A stretch of 53,878 nucleotides of DNA from Acrasis kona (taxonomy: Eukaryota; Heterolobosea; Eutetramitea; Acrasida; Acrasidae). A model generated the notes under the pieces. The model made no database searches and had not been told where the DNA came from. It saw nothing but the letters and a program-made list of their open reading frames with translations. A program made the translations under genes and the position numbers. Of this stretch, positions 1,182-52,543 are shown in pieces. The DNA lies in NCBI GenBank assembly GCA_026419775.2, contig JAOPGA020000744.1:1-53878 (forward strand), in the 5' to 3' direction. Numbering within the stretch: position 1 is the first letter of the stretch; the number at the start of each line of letters is the position of its first letter.

Positions 1182-2138
1182 TTATAATCCCATTTCTGCC
1201 GTTAGGTTTCTACCAAAATCCAAACTTGCGCGTAGATATGCATCTATAGCATTTGAGGTCCAATCTCCCATTAGTTGACACATTTCTTTGGTCATACCTG
1301 CGAGAAGTGCTTCGTTTGCACCTCCAATCCTCAGCAAATGAGATGAAAAATGTCCTTGAAAACTCATTAATGTTGCCACCTTTCTAAGCGAGTTTGTGAT
1401 GTAAAGTTTTGTGATATCTCCAAACAAGCCAGTACCAATGTTCTTGGGTCTTATTTTCAACCAACGTGAAAGCCAATACACTGGGCATGTTACTTTAAGT
1501 GAAGGGTTGATGTACAGTTGTCTACCAAACTCTCTTGTCTTTGTGCGGGTAAAATCAACATGGAAACCTTCTTTCAAATTAGCCAGATCTGTGATTAGCA
1601 GGTTACATATTTCTTGTCCTCTAGCCATGCTCCGCAGTCCCAGCGAAATGATTGCACATATCCGAATGTATTCGACATTGTCATTTAAAAGCTTCCTTCC
1701 TTTATCGATAAATTGTCTAAACAGTATGATTGGAAATGGATCGCGTTTTCTTTTTGAGTTGACAGCTGAAATTGACGTCGTGGCGTTAACCAAAGATTTG
1801 ACCACTTCCGACTTCATAATACTTATCAACTTGTCCATTTGTAACGCCTTAGCCCTGTGCATGACCGCATATCTGGCTGTCTTTACTACCGCTCCTGAAT
1901 TTTTGTTTAAAAACAGATCAGTTAAGAAGGCCAAAATAGCGTCCGTAGATACATCTAACGATCTCTCATCCATAAATTTTGCAAAGTTTCGGATATAAGT
2001 TCCATATGTGACGTTTGTTGAATCTCTAACACTGTTGGATATCAAAGTTCTCGACAATGCTTTCAGTTCATCAGTGGACTTCGAACCTTGACTGTGTAAA
2101 TTGTCCAGTTCTTCTTCAAGGGTTCCACGTGTGAACTC
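1182..2138 (-). CDS. DIRS/Ngaro-type tyrosine recombinase (integrase)
   Basis: This is the integration enzyme of the retroelement. It should cut and rejoin DNA through a tyrosine intermediate, integrating a circular copy without target duplication. The C-terminal half shows the catalytic order: arginine in SLGLRSMARGQEIC, basic residues in DFTRTKTREFGRQ, the H-x-x-R box in HLLRIGGANEA, MGDWTS, and the nucleophile in AIDAYLRAS. An N-terminal SAM-like segment (VTYGTYIRNFAKFMDE) precedes it. The frame stays open upstream to 3893, but that part lies inside the RT gene and looks like an out-of-frame shadow, so I place the start near the RT stop. Translation probably uses frameshifting, reinitiation or splicing. 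No internal stop is seen. Confidence 0.8.
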   Translation of the reverse strand, partial: EFTRGTLEEELDNLHSQGSKSTDELKALSRTLISNSVRDSTNVTYGTYIRNFAKFMDERSLDVSTDAILAFLTDLFLNKNSGAVVKTARYAVMHRAKALQMDKLISIMKSEVVKSLVNATTSISAVNSKRKRDPFPIILFRQFIDKGRKLLNDNVEYIRICAIISLGLRSMARGQEICNLLITDLANLKEGFHVDFTRTKTREFGRQLYINPSLKVTCPVYWLSRWLKIRPKNIGTGLFGDITKLYITNSLRKVATLMSFQGHFSSHLLRIGGANEALLAGMTKEMCQLMGDWTSNAIDAYLRASLDFGRNLTAEMGL

Positions 2139-4009
2139 GGGCCCGCTTTGAAAGCGTTTCCAGTCAATGTCATTGGTTGTCCTACTTGCATTTGAACTAA
2201 TTGCTTCCACCAGTGTTTGGTTGGCCAGTTTGGAACGATCACTACTGCTTCCGCTTTCGACTCTGTTATATGTCGTAGTATTCGTGGTATCATTGCAAAT
2301 GCTGCGCAACAGTAGCTCCGACCTGTCCATATCTGAGTGAAAGCGTCCACTCCTGCTGTCCCTTGACATGGATACCTTGTGTTGAACTTCGGAAGCTTTG
2401 CGTTTGTCGCATCCGCGAACCTGTCCACGTCGCACTTCCCTAATTGATCTTGTATTCTCTTGAAGCACTCTTCCGTTACTGTCCAATCTGAGAAATCCCC
2501 CCAAACCGGTGACACCGACAATGATGTTGGAGTTAAAAATGAAATTTGCCTTTCCAAAATCTGTTCCCAAATCATTTGGATCAAATCCTTTTGTGGTGAT
2601 TCTGTGGAACCATGCTTCATTGTTTGTCTTGCCATTAGAAAGTCTGTTTTCCACATCAGATTGCATTTCTTGTGGTCGAACTTTTTGATGGCGAAAAGCA
2701 GACTTCTTAACTCGATTACCTCTTGTGGCTCTGAGTAATCTATGCCTGTTATTTCTACTACCTCTTCTCCATTTCCTACTGTGCATTGATCCTTGTCTTC
2801 TGCAAATCTTGTTTCCACAGTATGGATAATTGATGGTTGGCCAAAGAATCTTCCATTGAAACGATCTATGTTGTCCCTTATCCAACGTAAGTTTGATTCC
2901 AGAATTGGGTTCATTTTTACTTCCACGTCCCATCCAAAGTCCTTCGGTTTTCCGTTCACCACCACTTTGTACAATTCCCCAAGGAAAGCGGAGGCTTGCA
3001 TGAAGGCTACCGTGAATGAAACAATTGATCCTCCTACTTGAGCGATCTCTCTGGCAGTAACCTTGGTCTTTTTGTTCACCTTGTCCAACACAATGTCCAA
3101 TCTTGACTTGATCTTTAGTACTTTCTCGTCGGGAATGAATGCTTTCATTTCGGCGGAGTCGACCACAATGCCCAGTATTGTTATCCTTATTGATGGTTCC
3201 CAGGTACCTTTTGCTGGATCTCTGACTAATCCTAGTTGATCGAACAATTCTAACAACACTGCCTTGGCTCTCTCTGCATCCTTTAGTAGTTTGTGTACTG
3301 CAAACAAGTCGTCTATGTACATGGATAAATTCACCCCCATCTCCCTTGCCTTTTTCTGCATGACTGTCATGATTTTGGTGAAGATGTATGGTGTTACGCT
3401 GTATCCGAATTGCATGACGCAATATTGCCAAATTTCTCCTAGATACTGAAAGGCGAAATACGGTCTGAAAGCTGGGTCTATTGATACGTGGAAATACCCA
3501 TTTGACAGATCTGCTGAGAACATAAACGAACCCTGACCTTCTGTAACCACCATATCGAGGATGGTTCGTATTCCTTCTAACTTGAACCTGAATGGTTTCA
3601 TGTCTACATGTTCGTTTACAGGTCGCATATCTGACACCAACCTGAACATCTTGGGCCCCGGTTTGTCTACCAAAAAGTACTCGTGCAGACACTTTGGAGA
3701 TTTGCACCTCTCTATCACGTTGGCGTCCCGATAACCAGAGTAAAGATTGTGGATCCAGTCCTTCTTCTTCTTGTCCATGATCGGTATCTGTTTGCCTTTC
3801 CTGAACTGAGCCCCGATGCTGATTGGTAGTTTTATTCCTTTTATGTATTCTAAAACTTGCCCATCCGCTCCGATTGCTTGCCAATTCTTCCAATGACGTC
3901 GCAGTGACCCAGTAGCTTGTCTGAGTAAGTGGATCGAGTCAATCGAGAAGGGTTCCGTTGACGTGACGCTTTGCATGGCACTTAACGGTTGAATGGTTAG
4001 TTCTGCCAC
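2063..4009 (-). CDS. Reverse transcriptase / RNase H polyprotein of the DIRS-like element
   Basis: The product (648 aa) copies element RNA into DNA. It has RT motifs in order: KMFRLVSDMRPVNEH, SADLSNGYFHVSID, FGYSVTPYIFT and the catalytic YIDD box in NLSMYIDDLFAVHK. An RNase H-like region follows (ITGIDYSEPQEVIELRSLLFAI and onward). Near the C terminus lies DVDRFADATNAKLPKFNTRY followed by VDAFTQIW and VVIVPNWPTKHWW, a conserved tail typical of DIRS and Ngaro pol proteins. The frame overlaps the gag frame by about 70 nt upstream and the recombinase downstream. No frame break is visible, so the gene may be intact. Confidence 0.88.
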   Translation of the reverse strand: MAELTIQPLSAMQSVTSTEPFSIDSIHLLRQATGSLRRHWKNWQAIGADGQVLEYIKGIKLPISIGAQFRKGKQIPIMDKKKKDWIHNLYSGYRDANVIERCKSPKCLHEYFLVDKPGPKMFRLVSDMRPVNEHVDMKPFRFKLEGIRTILDMVVTEGQGSFMFSADLSNGYFHVSIDPAFRPYFAFQYLGEIWQYCVMQFGYSVTPYIFTKIMTVMQKKAREMGVNLSMYIDDLFAVHKLLKDAERAKAVLLELFDQLGLVRDPAKGTWEPSIRITILGIVVDSAEMKAFIPDEKVLKIKSRLDIVLDKVNKKTKVTAREIAQVGGSIVSFTVAFMQASAFLGELYKVVVNGKPKDFGWDVEVKMNPILESNLRWIRDNIDRFNGRFFGQPSIIHTVETRFAEDKDQCTVGNGEEVVEITGIDYSEPQEVIELRSLLFAIKKFDHKKCNLMWKTDFLMARQTMKHGSTESPQKDLIQMIWEQILERQISFLTPTSLSVSPVWGDFSDWTVTEECFKRIQDQLGKCDVDRFADATNAKLPKFNTRYPCQGTAGVDAFTQIWTGRSYCCAAFAMIPRILRHITESKAEAVVIVPNWPTKHWWKQLVQMQVGQPMTLTGNAFKAGPSSHVEPLKKNWTIYTVKVRSPLMN

Positions 4010-7821: not shown

Positions 7822-8009
7822 AGGACTTATAGGACCCAAAGGATCTAAAGGATCTAAAAAAGAAGATGGAGTTAATGGGGATGCTGGACCACATAGTTTA
7901 CCTGGAAAAGATGAGGAAGATGGGGTAAGCGGTGAGATTCCTCAAAGGATAAAAAGTAGACTGGACAGAGTGGATGAAAGCCTCAAAAATTTACAGGGGG
8001 GTCCAACTT
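7822..8009 (+). pseudogene. Collagen-like G-X-Y coding fragment
   Basis: In one frame the sequence reads GLIGPKGSKGSKKEDGVNGD and continues with GAGP-type units, GKD, GVS and GEI, then a short helical stretch (RIKSRLDRVDESLKNLQGG). This is a triple-helix-like G-X-Y run with a few glycines lost, followed by a possible coiled-coil trimerisation segment. There is no ATG. The frame is preceded by TTTCTAATAG, which could be a splice acceptor. It ends soon after CAGGGGGGTCCAACTT at 7994-8009, a motif nearly identical to the left tip of the element at 45295. It appears to be a stranded exon. Confidence 0.45.
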
Positions 8010-8438
8010 GGGTAGTTGCAGTGATATGAGCTAAAATAAAAAAATTATTTTAAAAATATTATTATCCAATTACTATTATTATATTAGGGTTCATATTAGG
8101 AGGAACATACTGTATTTTCAGTGCTCTCGGAATCCATGAATCCCGCAATATTCTCTAGCTTGTCCTTTCGGGGAAACATGTCAAACTCATGATGGGTGAA
8201 GAAATAAAATTACTTAATAAGATCATGGCAACTCACACCTCCCATAATGTAATTAAAAACTATATATTGTGTATATATAAACATAACTTATAAATGTTTG
8301 TCGGGGTCAAAGTGACCTTTGTTGAGTGTCTGGCTAGTTCATAAATATCACTGTCGTTTTAGATACTTGGATATATTTTCTCTGTTTTTTTACTTGTCTT
8401 TTTGCCGGTTTGAAGAAACAAGTTAATAATAAAAGTCC
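8010..8438. other. No gene seen
   Basis: AT-rich sequence. One possible short exon reads LGFILGGTYCIFSALGI near 8090-8150, but nothing supports it further. Confidence 0.35.
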
Positions 8439-37666: not shown

Positions 37667-37963
37667 GTGAGAATGATTGAAGTTACAGAAGGTGAGAAAT
37701 GGTCAAAAACCGATCATTCTGTCACCAGACTTTATTATAATACTCCTTTGATAATACCTGATTCCTATGAGCAAATAAAGACATTTGTTGAGCAAACTCC
37801 TAAACTCACTCCTTTCTCTCCAAAAAACTCTCCAGATTTCTCAAATGTTTTGTTTCATGATGACATTATCAAAAATTTCAACTTTGCACCAAATGTAAAT
37901 CCGGAACATGATGAGGTTTTGGGCTCGCGCAATAATCAGTTTGTAGGGGGGTCAAAAATTTGA
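37667..37963 (+). CDS. Unknown ORF, probably truncated at its 3' end
   Basis: A 98-codon frame (starting MRMIEVTEGEKWSKTDHSVT) 47 bases after the RRM stop. Its composition is ordinary host-like. The last residues (FVGGSKI) are read from TTTGTAGGGGGGTCAAAAATT, where a G6-tipped motif begins at 37945, so the gene may have lost its 3' part to a mobile-element insertion. No domain recognised. Confidence 0.4.
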   Translation: MRMIEVTEGEKWSKTDHSVTRLYYNTPLIIPDSYEQIKTFVEQTPKLTPFSPKNSPDFSNVLFHDDIIKNFNFAPNVNPEHDEVLGSRNNQFVGGSKI

Positions 37964-38073
37964 TTTTTTTAATCAACAATCGAGGGGGGGGTGTATTTCG
38001 AAAATCACTAGTATTAGGGGGGTCTGACAAGAGCAAGGATTAAAAATAGATCTTGTTTAATGTACTAAATATT

Positions 38074-42874: not shown

Positions 42875-43648
42875 AATAAACGATTAAAAAAACAGTAGTA
42901 ACTATTATTCGGTGAATAATTTATTATTACATCTCATTGACTTTTTAGAATTGATTGATATTCTCTGTAGACAGTCCCGGAACTTGAGACATTTTAAAGG
43001 GTCAACCTCGGGACGAAAACTTTTGTCAGCACTTTATCCTCGGAACATGCCTAAAAGTTACTCGGAATAATTAGCGTAGCTAATTATGACTCGTAATCGT
43101 ATTTATGCCTGTTCCTTTGATAACAGTGTAGAAAAGAACTAGTCTCTTCATTCTTTAGAGTATAACAGACTTCTATTTTCGGTTGAGGTGATTGTTTACA
43201 AGCTTACAATCAATACAATGCCAGTGCTCGCGAGCACTGGCGAAAAATTTTTATTACTTTATCACTTAATTTTAGGGGGGGTGGTCTTACAAGATCAATA
43301 GGGGGTAAAAAATAAGTGATTATTGCGCATGCCCTTTTAAATTGAAACATTGGAATCGCTTTTATTAACATCACAAGGATCATGAGCTACCTGTGCAGAC
43401 TAAAATAGTTAATAGTAGTGAAACAAATATTTACCTCTGCTGGCAAATCTACACTAAAATTGATTAAAAGTGCCTTTAAAATACATGACCTGTTTTTTCA
43501 ATTTGTCAAAACCCCATTCTATTCAATTTATCAATAAAACTATTTAAAACGATATATTTGTTATTTTCGGACCTCGTGTTTGGATCGATTTTTTGGGGTT
43601 GGTTGAAGCTTAATTCAAGTCGGGTTGTTTAATAAAAATATTATTTAT
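42875..43648. other. Non-coding, holds a palindrome and G-rich motifs
   Basis: No gene. Features are the 22-bp perfect palindrome at 43220-43241 and the G7 and G5 runs at about 43274 and 43300. Confidence 0.45.
43220..43241. repeat. Perfect 22-bp palindrome
   Basis: GCCAGTGCTCG is followed directly by its reverse complement. A perfect 22-bp palindrome is not expected by chance in about 54 kb (about 0.01 expected). The half CGAGCACTGGCGA also occurs at 1060-1072 in the flank of the DIRS-like element. It could be a recombinase site. Confidence 0.7.
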
Positions 43649-44404: not shown

Positions 44405-44553
44405 TTTTTTATTTGTGTTGAAAGTTTTACTTGAGTTCAGGAAGTTTAAATATCCGGAATACGGAATAAATAAAGGAAAACCTTCTTCCTTTTACCTGAT
44501 AAATTCAATCCAATTCCAACTTCTTCAATGTTATTTTTTAAAAACACCGATAC

Positions 44554-45294
44554 ATGAGCGCACCAAGTACATTTTCTTCTTTGATACAGTCTATGAAAGT
44601 CTCTGTTGAGAAGGCAACCAGAAAGTACTCAGTAACAAAGAGGAAAGTCAGAACAGCAGAACAAAAAATTAGGAAGAAGCAGAGAACACTTCTAAACCCT
44701 TCCAATATAAAGAAAAAGCTTGAGAAGGCTTGCTACAGCCAAGTATGTACTGACCACTTTAGCGTCAGCGAGATTGCTGATATTCGGTCAATCATGGCTG
44801 ACATGAATGAGAGAGAACATACTGAATTTATCGTACATTTCATGCATGGGGCATGCTCTAATAAAAAAACTAAAAAAGAATTGGCCATTAATTACCACAT
44901 CAAGGGCAGAAGTGTATGTGCTCAAACATGGAGGGACATATATGGTATTTCAAAACACAAGGTGCGAATTGCAAGAAGACATTTTATTGAAGGCACAGAA
45001 CATGCAAATCTTGGTTCCGTCCGTACATCAAGAAAGTTTGAGTTAGCCCATTCCTGGTTTGTCACATTTGTTGAGGCCTACGGAGACCTGATGACTAACT
45101 GTGATGAAGTCCATCTATCAATGTTTCTTACGTTGTTAAATGTTTGGAAAATGTATAAGGCTGATATGGAGGACCTGGCTGAAAAAGATGTATATGAATA
45201 TCCTGCATTTTGTGCGATGATTGTTAAACATTTTCCAAACGTCTGTCGGCCAAAAGATTCTCGCTTAGGTTTGTGCGACAAATGTTATAAACTG
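44554..45294 (+). pseudogene. DUF7869-type transposase, 5' part (split by insertion)
   Basis: This is the N-terminal 247 codons of a transposase-like gene whose remainder is at 51758-52543. It has a basic coiled start (KRKVRTAEQKIRKKQRTLLN), a KELAINYHIKGRSVCAQTWR helix-turn-helix-like region, then the knuckle LGLCDKCYKL. The family, common in oomycetes, cnidarians and fungi, continues with an acidic RNase H-like core. Here the frame is interrupted exactly after CTG at 45294 by the element at 45295-51748. The last residues in the raw frame (QGGATSLLRRIKPE) come from the insert. Confidence 0.7.
45286..45294 (+). repeat. 9-bp target-site duplication, left copy
   Basis: TATAAACTG immediately precedes the left tip CAGGGGGGTGCAACTT. 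The same 9 bases, with two unread positions (nATAAACTn), follow the right tip at 51749-51757. Both copies lie in the same codon phase of the interrupted gene. Confidence 0.8.
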
Positions 45295-45339
45295 CAGGGG
45301 GGTGCAACTTCCTTGTTACGGAGAATAAAACCTGAGTAG

Positions 45340-45492
45340 AGATAACTGAAGAATTTTCAGAATTTTGAAAATATATATATCAAAACTAATTATATTTTTT
45401 CTAATTTAGAATATGTGAATTCTAANAATAAAACTCATCAACTATTTATTCAAAATTGACACTCTCTAATTCTATGCATTCAAAACAAATAC
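45340..45492. other. 5' non-coding region of the inserted element
   Basis: AT-rich sequence between the left tip region and the first gene, with one unread base at about 45426. The promoter of the transposase-like gene would lie here. Confidence 0.35.
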
Positions 45493-48400
45493 ATGCTTAC
45501 ATCATTAGGATGCACATCATTTAAAATTAATGACACGAATAAATCATTTGTGCTTTGTGCATTTTGTAACCAACCACAGTCCTATACNAATGTTGCGAGG
45601 CATATGAAAACCTGCAAATCCAACCCAGGCAAAATCCCACAGTTAGATGTTTGTGCAGGTCTACCATCTGATGAATACGCTATTCTCACAAATCATGCAG
45701 GACATATCCTGCAAGGCAATATCACTTTGAATGATAATAACTATCAACAATCAATCATGGCCACCAAATCAGATGAGCGGTTGTACTCAGTTTCTTGCAC
45801 AAGTATCAAGCAAGAACGTTCAGATGTGTGTTTATATTGTGCGCGTACAAGAAGAATCTTGAATCAAAAGCTAGCCAGATTACCAGACCTAAACAATCGT
45901 GAACAAGTATTGCAAATGAGAACACCTAATGATACCCCCCCTTTGGCACTAGCTAAGATAAATGCATTGTCGGATGCCCTCACAGACAAGAATAAGAGGT
46001 GTGTACAGTACTCAAACAATGTGAGCAAGGAAACAAATGACGATCGAATGAAGTTGCAAGATCGGATGCCCTCACAGACAAGAATAAGAGGTGTGTACAG
46101 TACTCAAACAATGTGAGCAAGGAAACAAATGACGATCGAATGAAGTTGCAAGAGTCATTTGTAACCTGTGTTCAAGAAGGTCTGTTAGATAAGGGTAATT
46201 TCAAGTTCTATATGCTGCAAGACATGTTCCAAAATATGCGTCAATCAAATTATGGCGTGAGACATAGTCCTGAAATGCTGCGCTTCTGGCTAATGGTTCG
46301 GTACTATGGTGGCTCTAAAGTTTTTGATATCCTTGGAGGACAACGAAACAAGAACAATATCAAAAAGTCAGAACAAACAAATGACAAAACAAACTTTGTA
46401 GTACCATCAATCCGTACACTAAAGAGCATGTCACCCCGAGGCTGGTATGGATTAATCAACGACAAAGAGATAAATATAATACGAGTAAGCATTGAAAAAA
46501 GGAGACAATCCAATGTTTTTATCTCACCATATTTTATCATTGCTTATGATGACATGGATATCCGACCTGGCTACGAAATATGGAGAGACTGCGTTGTTGG
46601 TAGTGAAGAGCTGATTACTTTTGAAGAGTTTGAAACTCTCAGTGCAGTTGATCTTGATAGAAGAATGGGGAGCAAGATGTGTGTTTTCAAAGCAATCAGT
46701 ACTTGTGGCCAAGTAACTATACCTGTTGCATTATGGGTTAATCATGATTCTAAAAGGAACAACAGTGAAGATGACGCCTGGGTTATTCAAAAGCTGAAAC
46801 TTATAGCTACTGCATTAGAGCATGATACGTTTCAAGTCATAGGTAGCAGTTCTGACGGAGATTTAGTTCATAATGAAAATTTTGTTGGACATATGAAAAA
46901 ATGGAACGAATTAAGAATTAATAAAAATGGGTGGTTTCATATCTTTGATGCAGAGCATCTCGCAAAATCAATTAGAAATGCTTTGTTAAAAAGAACTTTT
47001 TTTGATGTTATTACTAATTGTGATAGAGAAGATATCATTGTCAAGTTTGAAATGGCTGACCTTGTGAAAATGTTCAGCTCTAATGAGTTCAATTTATCTG
47101 ATTATTTGACAACCAATGATTTATCTCCTAGTGATATCATGCAATTTCAGCCCTTGAAGAATCTTGTTGATAATAAGGTTACAAGCGCACTTGAGTCTGC
47201 AACTTCTCCACTTCCAAAGGCATTGTCTTTGTTCCTGAAAAACATTAGAAATATATACGAAATTCCAAGAATAAGTAATGACAAGATGTCATTGGACGAC
47301 AAGGTCAAAGAGTTGCAAAACACTATGAATTATTTTCAAAATATTCAAAATGTAGAACCTGGTGGTGTTAGTAAAAGAAGTTACAAGTTTGATAAAAGAA
47401 CTTTATTCAGGATCATCAGCTTCTGTTCGGCTATTAAAGCTTTAATGGAGTTTTTAAAGAAACATCCTGACCCAAGGGTTGCACAGTTTGTTAAGCTATC
47501 AGCTTTATCAACATTAGCTGTTGAGCACACTTTCTGTATATCACAATCCAAAGTGCCCTATCCAACAGTAAGAGAATTCATAAATACATTCGCTTATGCA
47601 TGGTGGATACTGCAAAATATTCACACTGATCCAAAAGAGAAAGAATTAAACTTACCACTACCAGCTCCAACTACATGTTACAACATACTCGATATTCTCT
47701 TTCCACGCCCTGATCTTCCAACTCCTTATAAGGCACCTAAGAGAACAGCAGAGAAGCTTAAGCTCTCTGCAGCTAGTCTTGAAAAACTCAGCGAAAGAAC
47801 AGCTGGAAGACATGATCCCACTCCAAGGAATGTCCATGCTCATAGATCAAGTGTCCTTTATCAGTGTCCTTATGAATCTTGTGGCTATAAAGCATACAAG
47901 TTACTTGGGGCACTTGTATCTCATTTAACAAGTAAACATGAGGCCAAGGTTAAAGAAAGCGGTAAATCTGCAAAAGAACTTGGTAACGAGGTTCAAAGAT
48001 GTTCTATATTGAAGCATATTGAAGCTCAAGTAGCATATCGTTCTCAGTCAGCAGATTTAGTTGGGAAACAAAAACTTGATGTTATATACCTTGCAGCAAA
48101 AAGTATTGTTAAATCTGTTGTACATGAAAAAGATCTTCTTATAAATGAAAAGCCCATTGACGAGGAGGTGTTCTCTGCTAGTTTAAACGAGTCAGTAGTG
48201 GTTAGAGATACAATAGACACGGATTATATCTCATTTGATCAGTCTTGCATTCATAATGGTGTAAAGTATCACATTGTCATAGTTGACATTGAAACAACAG
48301 GATTTGCCAAAAATGCAGGCATAGTGCAAATAGCAGTGAAATCTTTGAATGATCCAAATATTAGAACACTTCTTATAAATCCAGCACCTTATGTTGCTCC

Positions 48401-49976
48401 AGTTATTATAAATGGAACAAACGCTGCAATGTGGAGTTTAAAAGCAATAACCGATGCTCACCAGATTACACCATCTATGGTAGAGGGATGTCAAGATATG
48501 GAGGCTGCTATAGAAAGCTTGTGCTACTACCTGACTGCTGATGAAACAGCTGTACCAATAATTATAGGTCACAATTGCAAATTTGACAAAACAAGGCTGG
48601 ACCATTGGGCAAAAAAACTCGACGTAGAGAATTGGAGCACTGAATGGCTGTGGTTAGACTCCATCAACATGATAGATGCAGTTACCGTCAATGGCAAGAA
48701 ATCGCGAAAGCTGAAAGACTTATTTACATCATGCTTTGGGGAGGATGTATACAACCAAGCATCTCATCACAGAGCTGAATGGGATGTCCAAATGACGTTT
48801 GATCTATTACAGCAACAGCATAATGATGTCAAGAAAATAGTTTACGATCAGTTAAAAGAATTGGGAAACCAACTAGAAGAAGATGATGACAAGTTACTGG
48901 AAGATGAGATTGCTGCTGAAAACAATGATCACAATCCCAGTGCTGATGAAGAGGAGCTTGATTGTATTGCTGATGACAACGGTGATGACATTTATGACGG
49001 TGAGGATGAATGCGAAGTGATTGATACTCCATCCCCAGCACCATCTGCAAAGCGAAGTAGATCTGAAACAAGCACAGACTCCAAAAACAAGAGACCAAAG
49101 CTAGATGATCCTGGACACTGCTTATGCAGCAGCAAATGCAAGACCAGCAGATGCGTCTGCAAAGCAGCCAATAGGTTTTGTTCTACTAACTGCCATAAAA
49201 ACCAAAAGAAAGTCCTGTGCGAGAACAACTGTACTGCACCAGTTGAACGTGTTAGATCTTATCCTAATCACATTGATCTTACAAAACCAGGTTTCAGACT
49301 GAACGCGTCAACAATGCTTTCCGCTCTTAATAAGATATTTGAAAAAGGAAACTTTAAAATGAGGGAGTACCGTTTAGATAATGGTGTCTATGACGAAGAA
49401 GAAATTTATGAAGACATTGTGAACCTGTTGAATGACAATGATTATTGTTACTATGCGTTTTTATATAATGAGCATTATACATCACTTACGTGCATCAAGG
49501 AAAATGACTCTATTTATTGCTTTTATTTTGACTCAATTGCGGTAAACTACCAACTTGAGACAGCACTACTAGAGATTTCAAAGAGACATGCACAGTTTAA
49601 ACTTCAGCGCCTTTTCAACAGAGGATTCCAAGTTGATAACTGGAGCTGCGGATACTGGGTAATTGTAGTAGGAAAAGCTGTCTTTAAATATTTTAATGAC
49701 AAAAGCACATATAAACCGATAAAGCACTTTATACTTGATATGAGTCAAGAGCTAGCAGTTCTGTTTTACGGCGATACGGAAATTTATTTAAATGCAATTT
49801 ACCTTTCAGATATTGAGCCTCATGCCTTTGATACAGTACATTATGAGAATAATTACATTTCATATGAAAATTCAAATCTTCGAACAGGTCCATACAATAA
49901 TGAGGGAAAGAAAAACAGATTTACAAGTGAAACGTGCAAAACAATCCAGTTTAGTGATAATATTGACTGTAGTTAA
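45493..49976 (+). pseudogene. Multidomain transposase-like protein: zinc finger, RNase H-like core, C2H2, DEDDh exonuclease, CXC, Ulp1-like protease
   Basis: Two frames (45493-46116; 46113-49976) form one protein once one copy of the 92-bp duplication is discounted. N-terminal finger: CAFCNQPQSY..VARHMKTC. In second-frame numbering the core has AYDDMDIRPGYE (D146-149), SSSDGDLVHNEN (D248), FDAEHLAKSIRN (D279, H282) and TLAVEHTFCISQ (E471); the D-x2-H-L-x-K-x2-R-N box recalls P-element/THAP9 transposases. A C2H2 finger (YQCPYESCGYKAYKL, about 587) follows. Then comes a DEDDh exonuclease: VDIETTG (D725), GHNCKFD (820-825), HHRAEWD (885-891). After an acidic linker a cysteine cluster (C1003 to C1040) and a C48 protease site follow: H1121, D1140, Q1173, C1179 (DNWSCGYWV). 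Intact but for the duplication. Confidence 0.75.
45970..46153 (+). repeat. 92-bp exact tandem duplication inside the transposase-like gene
   Basis: Copy 1 is 45970-46061 and copy 2 is 46062-46153; both start TCGGATGCCCTCACAGACAA. Since 92 is not a multiple of 3, the reading frame changes at the duplication. Subtracting one copy makes the two flanking frames coincide (VSKETNDDRMKLQ continuing into ESFVTCVQEG). Confidence 0.9.
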
Positions 49977-50163
49977 TAAATTGTAATTAAATATCAAATG
50001 GATCACTGGTAATTATAATAAGTATATCAAGGTAGCTACAACTTTGTTGTTGTTGCATATAGGTCTGCATATCTTAATATACCAGTGTAGAAAGTTATAT
50101 GATGTAGCTTCTTCGATGAATTATCTTTTTTGTGTCACACTCTTGTTAATAAAATTTTTTGTA

Positions 50164-51342
50164 ATGGTCAAGAATCCAGTTTTTGTGTGTACGTGTTGCG
50201 CTGCCGAAGAGTGTACAAAGACTGAACACATAGGAAGAGAGTTTGGAGAGAGGAACAAAAAGGGAAAGCCATCAAACAAAATATCAAAAAGAGTTCTAGA
50301 AGTCTTGTTGTACAAATTCCCAAAAGGAATATTTGTTGATGGATTCGTATGCTCTCACCACAAGAGCAAATACAACACCAAATCAAAATATTGTAGAGAA
50401 TTTATTTCCCTAGATCCAACTCTCAGACAAAATTTTGCAACTACAGCAGAACAATTACTATTTGAATGGAGGTCACCTAAGAATGCGGTATGCACTATTA
50501 ACTCTTTTGTTAACAAGATGTAGACCAAGAAAAAGTACGTTGTAGAAAGAGGATTCGTTGTGAAAGATGGAGCGGCTGATGGGGAAATTGAAACATTCTA
50601 TAATGTTGTTGGCAGAAGGGAATTAGCCATATTCAACGAGGACTATAAAATGGTCAGACCGGATGGGGGCACAATCGCCCAATTATCAAAGGGTGTATTC
50701 ACTGCTGCAATGATGAAGACACTTTATGAGTCAACACTAGACCTTGCCGATGACTTCGCCCCAAAATGCGGCTTGGATGAGGTAAAAGGAGTAAAGGCAG
50801 TCCACCATCTAGGACAGTGGCGGAAGTATCAAAAGCGTGTCTTCGAAACGAGTGACTCAAAAAACGAGCACGCCCAGAAATGGTTAAAAGTGAACACTGA
50901 CTCAGGGCTTTTCAACACATTAACCAAATACATTCATGATACTATGCCAGATTTGTTTAGTACGTATGAAAAAGCCTCCAAAGTGAAAGAATCATTGTTC
51001 CCTCCATTTAATTCTGTAGCCATTAACTATGGCACGAGTAAGAGACACCAGGATGATGATGACTTTAAATACGGCCACGCGTTTATTGTTCCGTTTGGTG
51101 ATTACAGAAGAGGAGAGTTGATAATGGAGAACATCATTACAGGTGCAGATGCTCAACCTGGTGATATCGTCCACTTTGATGCGGCTAACATCTGGCATTA
51201 CAATCAAGAAGTAGAAGGTGAGAGGTTTTCCCTAGTATTTTTTACAGATAGAAATTCTTTCTTCCCCTGTCTAAAACTATTGTCTAATGATAGAGTAAAC
51301 CCTTTGAAAGAGTCGCACAACCAATCTGAAACGAGCAAATAA
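50164..51342 (+). CDS. TET/JBP-type 2OG-Fe(II) dioxygenase with N-terminal zinc cluster
   Basis: Predicted to oxidise a modified base (5-methylcytosine or thymine type) in DNA with Fe(II) and 2-oxoglutarate. Two exons, 50164-50487 and 50524-51342, are joined in frame by a 36-nt intron (GTATGC to GATGTAG), giving 380 residues. Exon 1 is a Cys/His-rich module (VFVCTCCAAEECTKTEHIG; FVCSHHKSKYNTKSKYC), a likely DNA-binding zinc cluster. Exon 2 has the double-stranded beta-helix signature, numbered in its ORF from 50560: NYGTSKRHQDDDDF (His163, Asp165), QPGDIVHFDAANIWH (His213) and GERFSLVFF (Arg222 for 2OG). The catalytic set is complete. The TET/JBP assignment rests on motif spacing and the known link with DNA transposons; an AlkB or prolyl-hydroxylase relative is possible. 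Confidence 0.7.
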
Positions 51343-51575
51343 AATATCCTATTTCAATCCCTGGGTTTTACGTCCAAACTGGTGAGCTTTATCATTTGCA
51401 TCAGACGTTTTATTACAAAATCTATATTTATTAATTACATTTTCGTATTTTTTTATCCGATCGGATGATATTGACATTTCTCCTTAGTTTCACCGCATCA
51501 TCCTATGTTACACCCCCCTGCATGTAATATGTATACATTATATTTATTACATTTAATATTATAATTGTACTTCAA
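51343..51575. other. 3' non-coding part of the inserted element
   Basis: AT-rich. It contains the sequence ACACCCCCCTGCATG at about 51508, which read on the minus strand matches the left tip CAGGGGGGTG[C/T]AAC, and so may be an internal or older terminal repeat. Confidence 0.4.
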
Positions 51576-51770
51576 TTTATATTACACTTCTGTAATTTTT
51601 GTTTTATTTAGCAGTTGAACTCCCCTTATAAACAAATTAAATGAATTAAAAAGAAAGTGGCTTAATTTGTAATTATATTTATTTTGAAATCTATTTATAT
51701 ATTACATATATGTAATTTTTGTTTATATCAACAGTTGAACTCCCCCCTNATAAACTNTTGAATGAAAGAA
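51576..51770. repeat. Tandem copies of the right terminus
   Basis: About 75 bases around 51576-51656 recur at 51696-51770 with a 120-base period: TGTAATTTTTGTTT, then CAGTTGAACTCCCC, then a TATAAAC-like stretch and AAATGAA/TGAATGAA. The copy thus includes the tip and resembles the flanking target sequence as well. Confidence 0.55.
51749..51757 (+). repeat. 9-bp target-site duplication, right copy
   Basis: Reads nATAAACTn. Both unread bases are at the ends of the duplication. With T and G there it equals the left copy TATAAACTG. Confidence 0.75.
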
Positions 51771-52543
51771 ACACTGCAAAAACAAGGTATGATAGGGACC
51801 TTGTCAAGCAGAAAATGGTCAGGCACACTAAGCTTCATAAAGCAGAGAGGGGCTTCTATCATGTTGACAGATTAAAATCTAGACAATGTCCATCTGAATA
51901 CATGTCGTTAATTATAGATGTACCAAAGTGTCTTATTATTCCAACAATCTTTAAGGCACCCAAGTCCGTGAGTAGAGTATTGCCACTACCTGTGTCAATG
52001 GAGGGGATAATAAATTATGGTGAACAAATTCATCAACTACAAACAATGCTCCCAATGTTCAAAAATGATCCCAATATAGTCATGACAGCTTTATTCTACC
52101 ACATATTAGAAATTGGTGAAAGGAAGAAGCTGCCACCATCATTACATGTACAAGGTGACAATGCCACAACAAATAAATGTGTACCTATGTTTGGTTTTCT
52201 TGGTTATTTAGTATACCACAGATGGTTTAAGGAGGCTGAATTTTCTACAATGTGTGCAGGACACACCCATGAAGATATTGATCAGATGTTCAGTACATGG
52301 GAGATCTGGTGCCGAAAAAACTCTGTATACTCTCTTCCTGACTTTATTAATAAAATTGATACAATGTATACTGCACCAGAAACAAGACCATCCGTCACCC
52401 TTATGAACAAGGTGCTGGACTTTAAGAAGTGGTTGGATCCTAAAATCTTTTGGTTGAAGGGTCATTTTAAAATGCATTCATTCAAATTTGCAATAGATGA
52501 AACCAACAGTGTTGGAATGTCACATAAAATGAAGTCAATTTAA
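51758..52543 (+). pseudogene. DUF7869-type transposase, 3' part (split by insertion)
   Basis: It continues the gene at 44554-45294. It begins LNERNTAKTRYDRDLVKQ, then has HKAERGFYHVDRLKS, MSLIIDVPKC (first acid), LPPSLHVQGDNATTNKCVPM (the D-N-x3-N box), FLGYLVYHRWF and FSTMCAGHTHEDIDQMFSTW (the G-H-T-H-x-D-I-D-Q hallmark of the family), ending near SHKMKSI. The core seems intact apart from the insertion, so the host element may have been active until interrupted. The short end suggests the C terminus may be slightly truncated. Confidence 0.7.

Follow-up and report, generated by a model that had tools for sequence, protein, structure and literature searches.

What kind of element carries an exonuclease, a SUMO-type protease, and a DNA dioxygenase beside its transposase, and do these parts belong to one element? 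The question is raised by contig C361 of the Acrasis kona assembly (37.4 Mb, 1021 contigs), a stretch of 53,878 base pairs (bp) that was analyzed at its full length and is called the window here. A. kona is a heterolobosean amoeba of the Discoba, and not one of the early-diverging fungi in which the initial annotation of the stretch had placed it. In the window, a DUF7869 gene is split by a large inserted element [Table 1]. The best explanation, to which we give a probability of roughly 0.85, is that the insertion is a cut-and-paste DNA transposon of A. kona with a P-like core and accessory enzymes that would act as proposed below. The observed part is that the target gene is uninterrupted elsewhere, that the family has CAGGG-tipped inverted repeats and 8-bp target duplications, that one large protein is accompanied by a second gene on the same strand, and that intact and shortened copies both occur.

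The DUF7869 gene is the target of the insertion, and its right part has a Pfam match (2e-42). Three paralogous loci, retrieved out of the four nearly full-length DUF7869 matches listed, are uninterrupted and share 97-99% identity with the window in the aligned stretches; one of them lacks about 210 bp further right. The uninterrupted paralogues read TGTTATAAACTCTTGAATG, and the window reads TTATAAACTG, then the element, then CCCCCCTNATAAACTNTTGAATG. Because the paralogous loci are uninterrupted at the same place, this is a real insertion flanked by the repeat ATAAACT, the sole stretch readable on both flanks in the window. Owing to ambiguous bases (N) at 51749 and 51757, window duplications of 7, 8, or 9 bp are indistinguishable; since both ends carry the tip CAGGGGGG, the flanks read most naturally as a duplication of 8 bp with one altered base. 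The DUF7869 gene is multi-copy (window 44542-45336 and 51716-52540, plus loci L061-L063; four more matches are nearly full-length and 96-97% identical in DNA), and a DUF7869 frame of 749 amino acids is open to the edge of L061 and beyond. The target gene may itself be mobile.

Comparison with other copies supported the initial annotation in its claim of a DNA transposon and in its left end at 45295, whereas its G6 tips and 9-bp duplication gave way to the tip CAGGGGGG and to 8 bp; a pattern of two G6 runs had 0 matches. The right end had been put at 51748; the insertion stands, but it ends at 51749 with an outer extension, and the inner end at 51520 is the one homologous to other branches. The tip at C69 is a changed form of CAGGG. 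Starting at the left tip CAGGGACG, the C149 and C314 copies share 99.4% identity, and the DNA left of the tip is unrelated. Counted from the tip, the bases identical at both ends number 11 in C149 (CAGGGACGTGC), 18 in C539 (CAGGGGGGTCCACCTTGG), 10 in the window, and 9 each in C558 and C231; at the right end, the window, C149, and C539 copies have GCGGTGAAA in common, about 25 bp inside the tip. Outer extensions beyond the tips are also found in other copies of the window branch, at left as well as right ends (15 DNA matches, including fragments and the window itself). In the window copy the extension is confined to the right end; the C919 copy stops at about the inner right tip, followed by unrelated DNA. 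The extensions in window 51521-51749, C578, C451, C534, C626, C886, and C677 consist of tandem subterminal repeats with several possible tips. Outside the element, clusters of runs of five to eight G, most of them followed by T, lie at window 37946-38022 and 43275-43305.

The duplication length is taken from the more divergent C558 branch, for which 15 matches to the 200-bp right end and 12 to the 123-bp left end were found. Seven pairs reach both tips on one contig and were counted as complete copies; C557 and C256 were left out, as the matches at their right ends do not reach it. Perfect 8-bp duplications flank five of the seven: TGATGTAC at C558, AATTATTT at C976, TTTAATCC at C352, GAAAAACG at C97, and GATTCTTT at C151. 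A pattern search with joined flanks returned one place for the C151 copy, an exact empty site with a single GATTCTTT (C850:535-570). For the C976 copy, it gave 0 matches to an empty site or a footprint. All six pairs apart from C558 are internally shortened (1218-2642 bp).

Our search of the A. kona genome, in which 35 of 55 candidates were scored, found at least 44 matched transposase stretches on 23 contigs, the window's included, and thus the further copies with the same kind of tips for which the initial annotation had proposed such a search. Unbroken single frames are present in C149 (1506 amino acids), C539 (1501), and C558 (1433), at 71, 51, and 36% identity to the window frame, respectively. 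The order in these intact copies is the same: a P-like core, a finger, a DEDDh exonuclease, a cysteine cluster, and an Ulp1-type C48 protease, all in one frame and not in separate neighboring genes. This is the arrangement that the initial annotation had described for a joined protein; the single polypeptide is real in C149, C539, and C558, and joining of frames is needed in the window because a 92-bp tandem duplication shifts the frame there. The core residues of the window frame are D170, D272, D303-x2-H306, and E495.

Family profiles matched both enzymatic accessory domains. Pfam RNase_T was found in six of the 10 rows of alignment A4, with a best expectation value (E) of 1.4e-9 (0.0029, below cut-off, for the window protein alone), and the A4 profile matched the PolC exonuclease 2p1j at E 5.3e-7. 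For the C48 domain, A4 matched ULP_PROTEASE 7fiu weakly (E 0.0085) and XopD at 0.39 and 0.56, and Pfam scans of the window protein, its copies, and the A4 rows gave no match. PF03638 (TCR, the CXC model of Tesmin/TSO1) matched the cysteine cluster at sub-threshold values only (E 1.2 and 8.3). Alignment A1 (five rows) shows no variation at the active-site residues listed in Table 1 or at the cluster cysteines. Between the window and C149, the ratio of nonsynonymous to synonymous divergence (dN/dS) is 0.14 in the core and 0.11 in the exonuclease; dN is 0.21 in the C48 domain and 0.19 in the cysteine cluster, where dS is saturated, as it is throughout between the window and C539. We argue from this long-term constraint that the parts are functional in live copies.

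In the window, C539, C677, and C919 copies, the transposase is followed by a second gene on its own strand; the match to this gene is partial in C677 and contains one stop in C919. The profile of its family (A2) matched Naegleria Tet 5cg8/4lt5 (E 1.6e-4 and 2.6e-4) and CcTet (0.05), and Pfam Tet_JBP was found in three of the five A2 rows (best 5.6e-9), the window protein alone having no match; the TET/JBP assignment of the initial annotation is thereby upheld. That annotation had seen two plus-strand genes only, and both are there, together with one small further frame that could be a 5' exon, a readthrough product, or a separate small protein. C558 has a different second gene, a frame of 296 residues. 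The 280 residues used in searches matched Tet_JBP above cut-off (6.8e-11), CcTet (2e-7), and the window-type family (E 1.2e-7). A third type in C149 (L004:5605-6951, 449 amino acids) has a dioxygenase-like middle with an HxD..H..R pattern recognized by eye. Its C-terminal part is BRCT-like in appearance, with no Pfam match. Since the window-type, C558, and C149 genes differ, the same place holds divergent dioxygenases in divergent branches. The C539 protein corresponds to NCBI AKO1_003657 of A. kona (100% identity over 98% of the length). The whole genome gave 86 TET-like matches. Many TET-like genes lie away from this transposon and adjoin other, unassigned frames (L054-L057), and L054 and L056 hold near-identical TET-like copies.

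The placement of the core comes from fold prediction. The predicted fold of the C558 homologue matches the P element transposase over 368 residues; it has the residues D, D, D(2)H, and E on an RNase H fold, with a helical insertion domain preceding the last helix, and its confident part includes the catalytic D positions. The P-element-like D..D..D-x2-H..E core of the initial annotation is thus supported, and its statement that no superfamily matches holds for the domain combination but not for the core. None of the P-type Pfam models matched the nine core rows at E up to 10 (with HMMER filters applied), and PF21787 had no match in the genome in a search without a positive-control match. A THAP domain was likewise not matched at E up to 10; a C-x2-C..H..C finger stands at that place. 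The PDB profile search of the core returned one match at E 6.3, a chance value, and the scattered single-row matches of a Pfam scan (best DAAF9_2, 0.0012 in one of nine rows) were also taken as chance. Kolobok membership was rejected on the duplications, which are 8-bp and non-TTAA, and KDZ membership on the KDZ transposase profile PF18758, which matched neither the nine core rows nor the genome (again without a positive-control match). The 50 fold-comparison entries listed include no KDZ or Mutator chain, which rules out neither. The name KDZ reportedly goes back to a paper of 2014.

Table 1. Features of the inserted element in the window (positions in the 53,878-bp stretch; residues in window numbering).
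Feature	Position	Strand	Details
Whole inserted element, including outer right extension	45295..51749	+	6455 bp; insertion absent from three DUF7869 paralogues; ends judged against those of other copies
Inner element	45295-51520	+	6226 bp
Left target duplication copy ATAAACTG	45287..45294	.	Empty sites read ATAAACTC; 8-bp length taken from C558 branch
Right target duplication copy ATAAACTN	51750..51757	.	Last base (51757) is N, as is the base preceding the copy (51749)
Left terminal inverted repeat tip CAGGGGGGTG	45295..45304	+	CAGGG tips at matching place in C149, C314, C539, C231, C715, C578
Right (inner) terminal inverted repeat tip CACCCCCCTG	51511..51520	+	Homologous to right tips of other branches
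Outer right extension, tandem subterminal repeats	51521..51749	+	229 bp; also present inverted at left ends of other copies of window branch
N-terminal transposase part, other frame	45460..46113	+	C-x2-C..H..C finger, C-x2-C
92-bp tandem duplication	45970..46153 (45970-46061 / 46062-46153)	+	Breaks transposase frame in window copy
Main transposase frame, 1311 amino acids	46041..49976	+	Core, finger, exonuclease, cysteine cluster, C48 protease; motif places transferred from intact copies
DEDDh (DnaQ-like) exonuclease	48276..48806	+	D749, E751, D849, H910, D915; Pfam RNase_T and PolC profile match
CXC-like cysteine cluster	49119..49220	+	Cysteines conserved in alignments
C48 (Ulp1-type) protease	49338..49745	+	H1145, D1164, Q1197, C1203; profile match
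Small cysteine-rich frame before TET gene	50164..50523	+	Counterpart at same place in C539; closed by stop in both
TET/JBP-type 2-oxoglutarate Fe(II) dioxygenase gene	50524..51342	+	H175-x-D177 ... H225 ... R234; A2 profile matches

Conceivably, the exonuclease, cysteine cluster, and protease could be host genes that were fused or mis-assembled beside the transposase in the window copy, which is rearranged and lies on a contig with Ns at one junction. However, three intact copies as far apart as 71, 51, and 36% identity to the window have the same order in one unbroken frame, the active-site residues are invariant across copies, and dN/dS between the window and C149 is low in the core and exonuclease; being contradicted by these copies, such a fusion was rejected, its chance being close to nil. 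It is also very improbable that the TET-type gene is a chance neighbor and no part of the element. Most of the 86 TET-like matches do lie on contigs without a listed transposase match, yet the gene stands between the terminal repeats on the transposase strand in the window, C539, and C558, lies beside the transposase, in the same orientation, in C677 and C919, and is replaced by divergent dioxygenase types at the same place in divergent branches (one of them, C149, weak). A more local doubt concerns the direct repeat of the window, which might stem from microhomology, the right-hand ATAAACT being element DNA joined to the target: the outer extension in other copies reads CCCCTTATAAAC, CTCCCCTTATAAAC belongs to a subterminal repeat in several other copies, and the left base is G in the window where the empty sites have C. 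Nevertheless, the target gene runs on around the repeat as in the empty sites and other copies have clean 8-bp duplications; we regard this origin as unlikely, and it would change the window duplication alone, not the nature of the element.

That the element belongs to another superfamily, of hAT or KDZ/Zisupton type with 8-bp duplications and a C/D-x2-H motif, and is P-like by convergence, appears improbable in view of the fold match, although hAT and Zisupton elements also make 8-bp duplications and TET genes are carried by KDZ and hAT elements in fungi, according to passages of Kojima (2025, PMC12730594). Several observations weigh against the P-like transposon that we prefer. Its P-likeness comes from one predicted fold (9 rows; mean predicted local distance difference test, pLDDT, 56; predicted template modeling score 0.52), in which the stretch of the presumed catalytic E (678-705 of P0003) has pLDDT <50, and the core has no Pfam or PDB sequence match beyond chance. 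P0001-P0003 have L at the place of D528, which contacts guanosine triphosphate (GTP) in the P transposase; this place, three residues before the presumed catalytic E, depends on that E for its assignment and is the one pocket residue mapped. If the presumed E is right, GTP use may have been lost. The window copy is defective, and its dN/dS of 0.44 overall against the close copy C677 is as in decaying copies. C532 and C136, two of the seven complete C558-branch copies, have no duplication, and none is clear in C149, C539, or C231; C532 may be a recombinant because it has its left flank in common with C151. Finally, the C149 second gene is weakly TET-like (hhalign E 0.0034, probability 9.6) with no Pfam match, and the CpG excess described below is also found in the DUF7869 gene (4/10, 4/8, 6/11, and 6/14; p 0.011 to 1e-4), so that it is not element-specific.

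For the P-like transposon, we propose that the RNase H core with its helical insertion domain would excise the element and join it to targets with an 8-bp stagger. The 3'-5' exonuclease of DnaQ type that is fused to the core would trim 3' single-stranded DNA from the reaction. Since the P transposase leaves a stagger of 17 nucleotides, described as unusually long (PMC7776569), an exonuclease within the transposase protein would help to clean up the donor break or stray ends. Targets of the C48 protease may be repair or silencing proteins at the break, or the transposase itself, which would be stripped of SUMO- or ubiquitin-like tags; a role in transposition has been suggested for the Ulp1 domains of Ginger and Mutator (PMC2836005). 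The TET/JBP-type enzyme would oxidize 5-methylcytosine, or another modified base, on element copies and so oppose host methylation, as base oxidation by transposon TET proteins has been proposed for fungal elements (PMC12730594). We infer from these parts that the element would trim ends, cut SUMO-type tags, and edit its chromatin.

Methylation in the host is suggested by two observations. Cytosine-5 methyltransferase models scored above cut-off on 6 contigs (10 matches), and the copies differ by an excess of CpG transitions: between C149 and C314 there are 1 transversion and 27 transitions, and CpG, which makes up 10% of C/G sites, holds 10 of these transitions (p 1.7e-4); the counts are 19 of 60 for the window and C677 (p 1.1e-6) and 22 of 58 for the window and C919 (p 5.4e-7). 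Together, the sequence data suggest, indirectly, CpG methylation of repeats in A. kona. Repeats make up 16.8% of the genome, according to the genome paper (PMC11589745), whose main text has words starting with methyl, tet, or dioxygenase 0 times and transpos once, on RNA degradation.

The window holds traces of further mobile DNA. At 7994-8109, a stretch with a CAGGGGGGTCCAACTTGGG tip is 79% identical over 127 bp to the C539 right end in inverse orientation; judged by this likeness, it putatively belongs to the same transposon lineage, as a remnant or a short relative. On the minus strand, a 903-amino-acid frame at 1185-3893 has a weak N-terminal tyrosine-recombinase match (Phage_int_SAM_4, 4.2e-4, below cut-off) and is possibly another mobile element.

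As far as searched, each accessory part has a precedent in some transposon and the combination has none. The P element/THAP9 superfamily (Drosophila P, zebrafish Pdre2) is alike in the RNase H core, whose D, D, D(2)H, and E are similarly spaced, the helical insertion domain, the predicted-fold match, and the 8-bp duplications. Unlike it, the A. kona element has no Pfam-level sequence match, no THAP domain was found, D528 is apparently not kept, the protein is much longer (1433-1506 amino acids) with its finger, exonuclease, cysteine cluster, and C48 protease, and a TET-type second gene and CAGGG tips are present. KDZ and other TET-bearing fungal transposons, described on TET genes of eleven fungal lineages in passages of Kojima (2025, PMC12730594), likewise have a captured TET/JBP gene and many TET-like genes in the genome, but the A. 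kona transposase differs by fold and its host is of the Discoba, not of the fungi. KolobokD also encodes a DEDDh (DnaQ) exonuclease, proposed to degrade 3' ends of DNA intermediates (PMC9587614); Kolobok duplications are, in contrast, 4-bp TTAA, a word search of the main text of that paper gave no Ulp1, and its relevant passages note no TET gene. Some Ginger1 transposases have a C-terminal Ulp1-type protease, as do Ulp1-bearing Mutator elements, but the cores are gypsy-integrase-like or of Mutator type, with no exonuclease or TET gene noted in the relevant passages of PMC2836005. No named superfamily with the same domain order was found, and searches of the open-licence literature gave no report of the domain combination or of a TET gene on a P-like element, and none of transposons with TET genes from Acrasis or Naegleria. 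Outside the A. kona genome, no transposase relatives were found at E 0.001 with P0002 (3671 candidates) or at E 1 with A3 (8000 candidates scored), 0 of 13 viral-contig stretches fitting the pattern were confirmed as transposase relatives, and the C539 TET-type protein returned one match, the Acrasis protein itself (1852 candidates). This absence is weak because Acrasis transposase records are also missing and the collections may hold few eukaryotes.

More tentatively, these elements could form a separate P-like lineage in Discoba with its own end-trimming, tag-removing, and DNA-demodifying enzymes, in which an exonuclease coupled to a P-type long-stagger cut would remove 3' tails, GTP control would possibly be lost, and the elements would have moved divergent TET/JBP-type genes round the genome as possible vehicles of spread in the NgTET/kinetoplastid JBP clade. 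The TET-transposon pairing was described from fungi by Kojima (2025, PMC12730594); the present element places a P-like transposase in a heterolobosean and, as far as searched, is the first link of such a transposase to a TET/JBP-type gene, with an exonuclease and a SUMO-type protease inside the transposase itself. In essence, two questions become testable in one system: how a transposon handles broken ends and tags, and whether TET enzymes protect its own copies from methylation.

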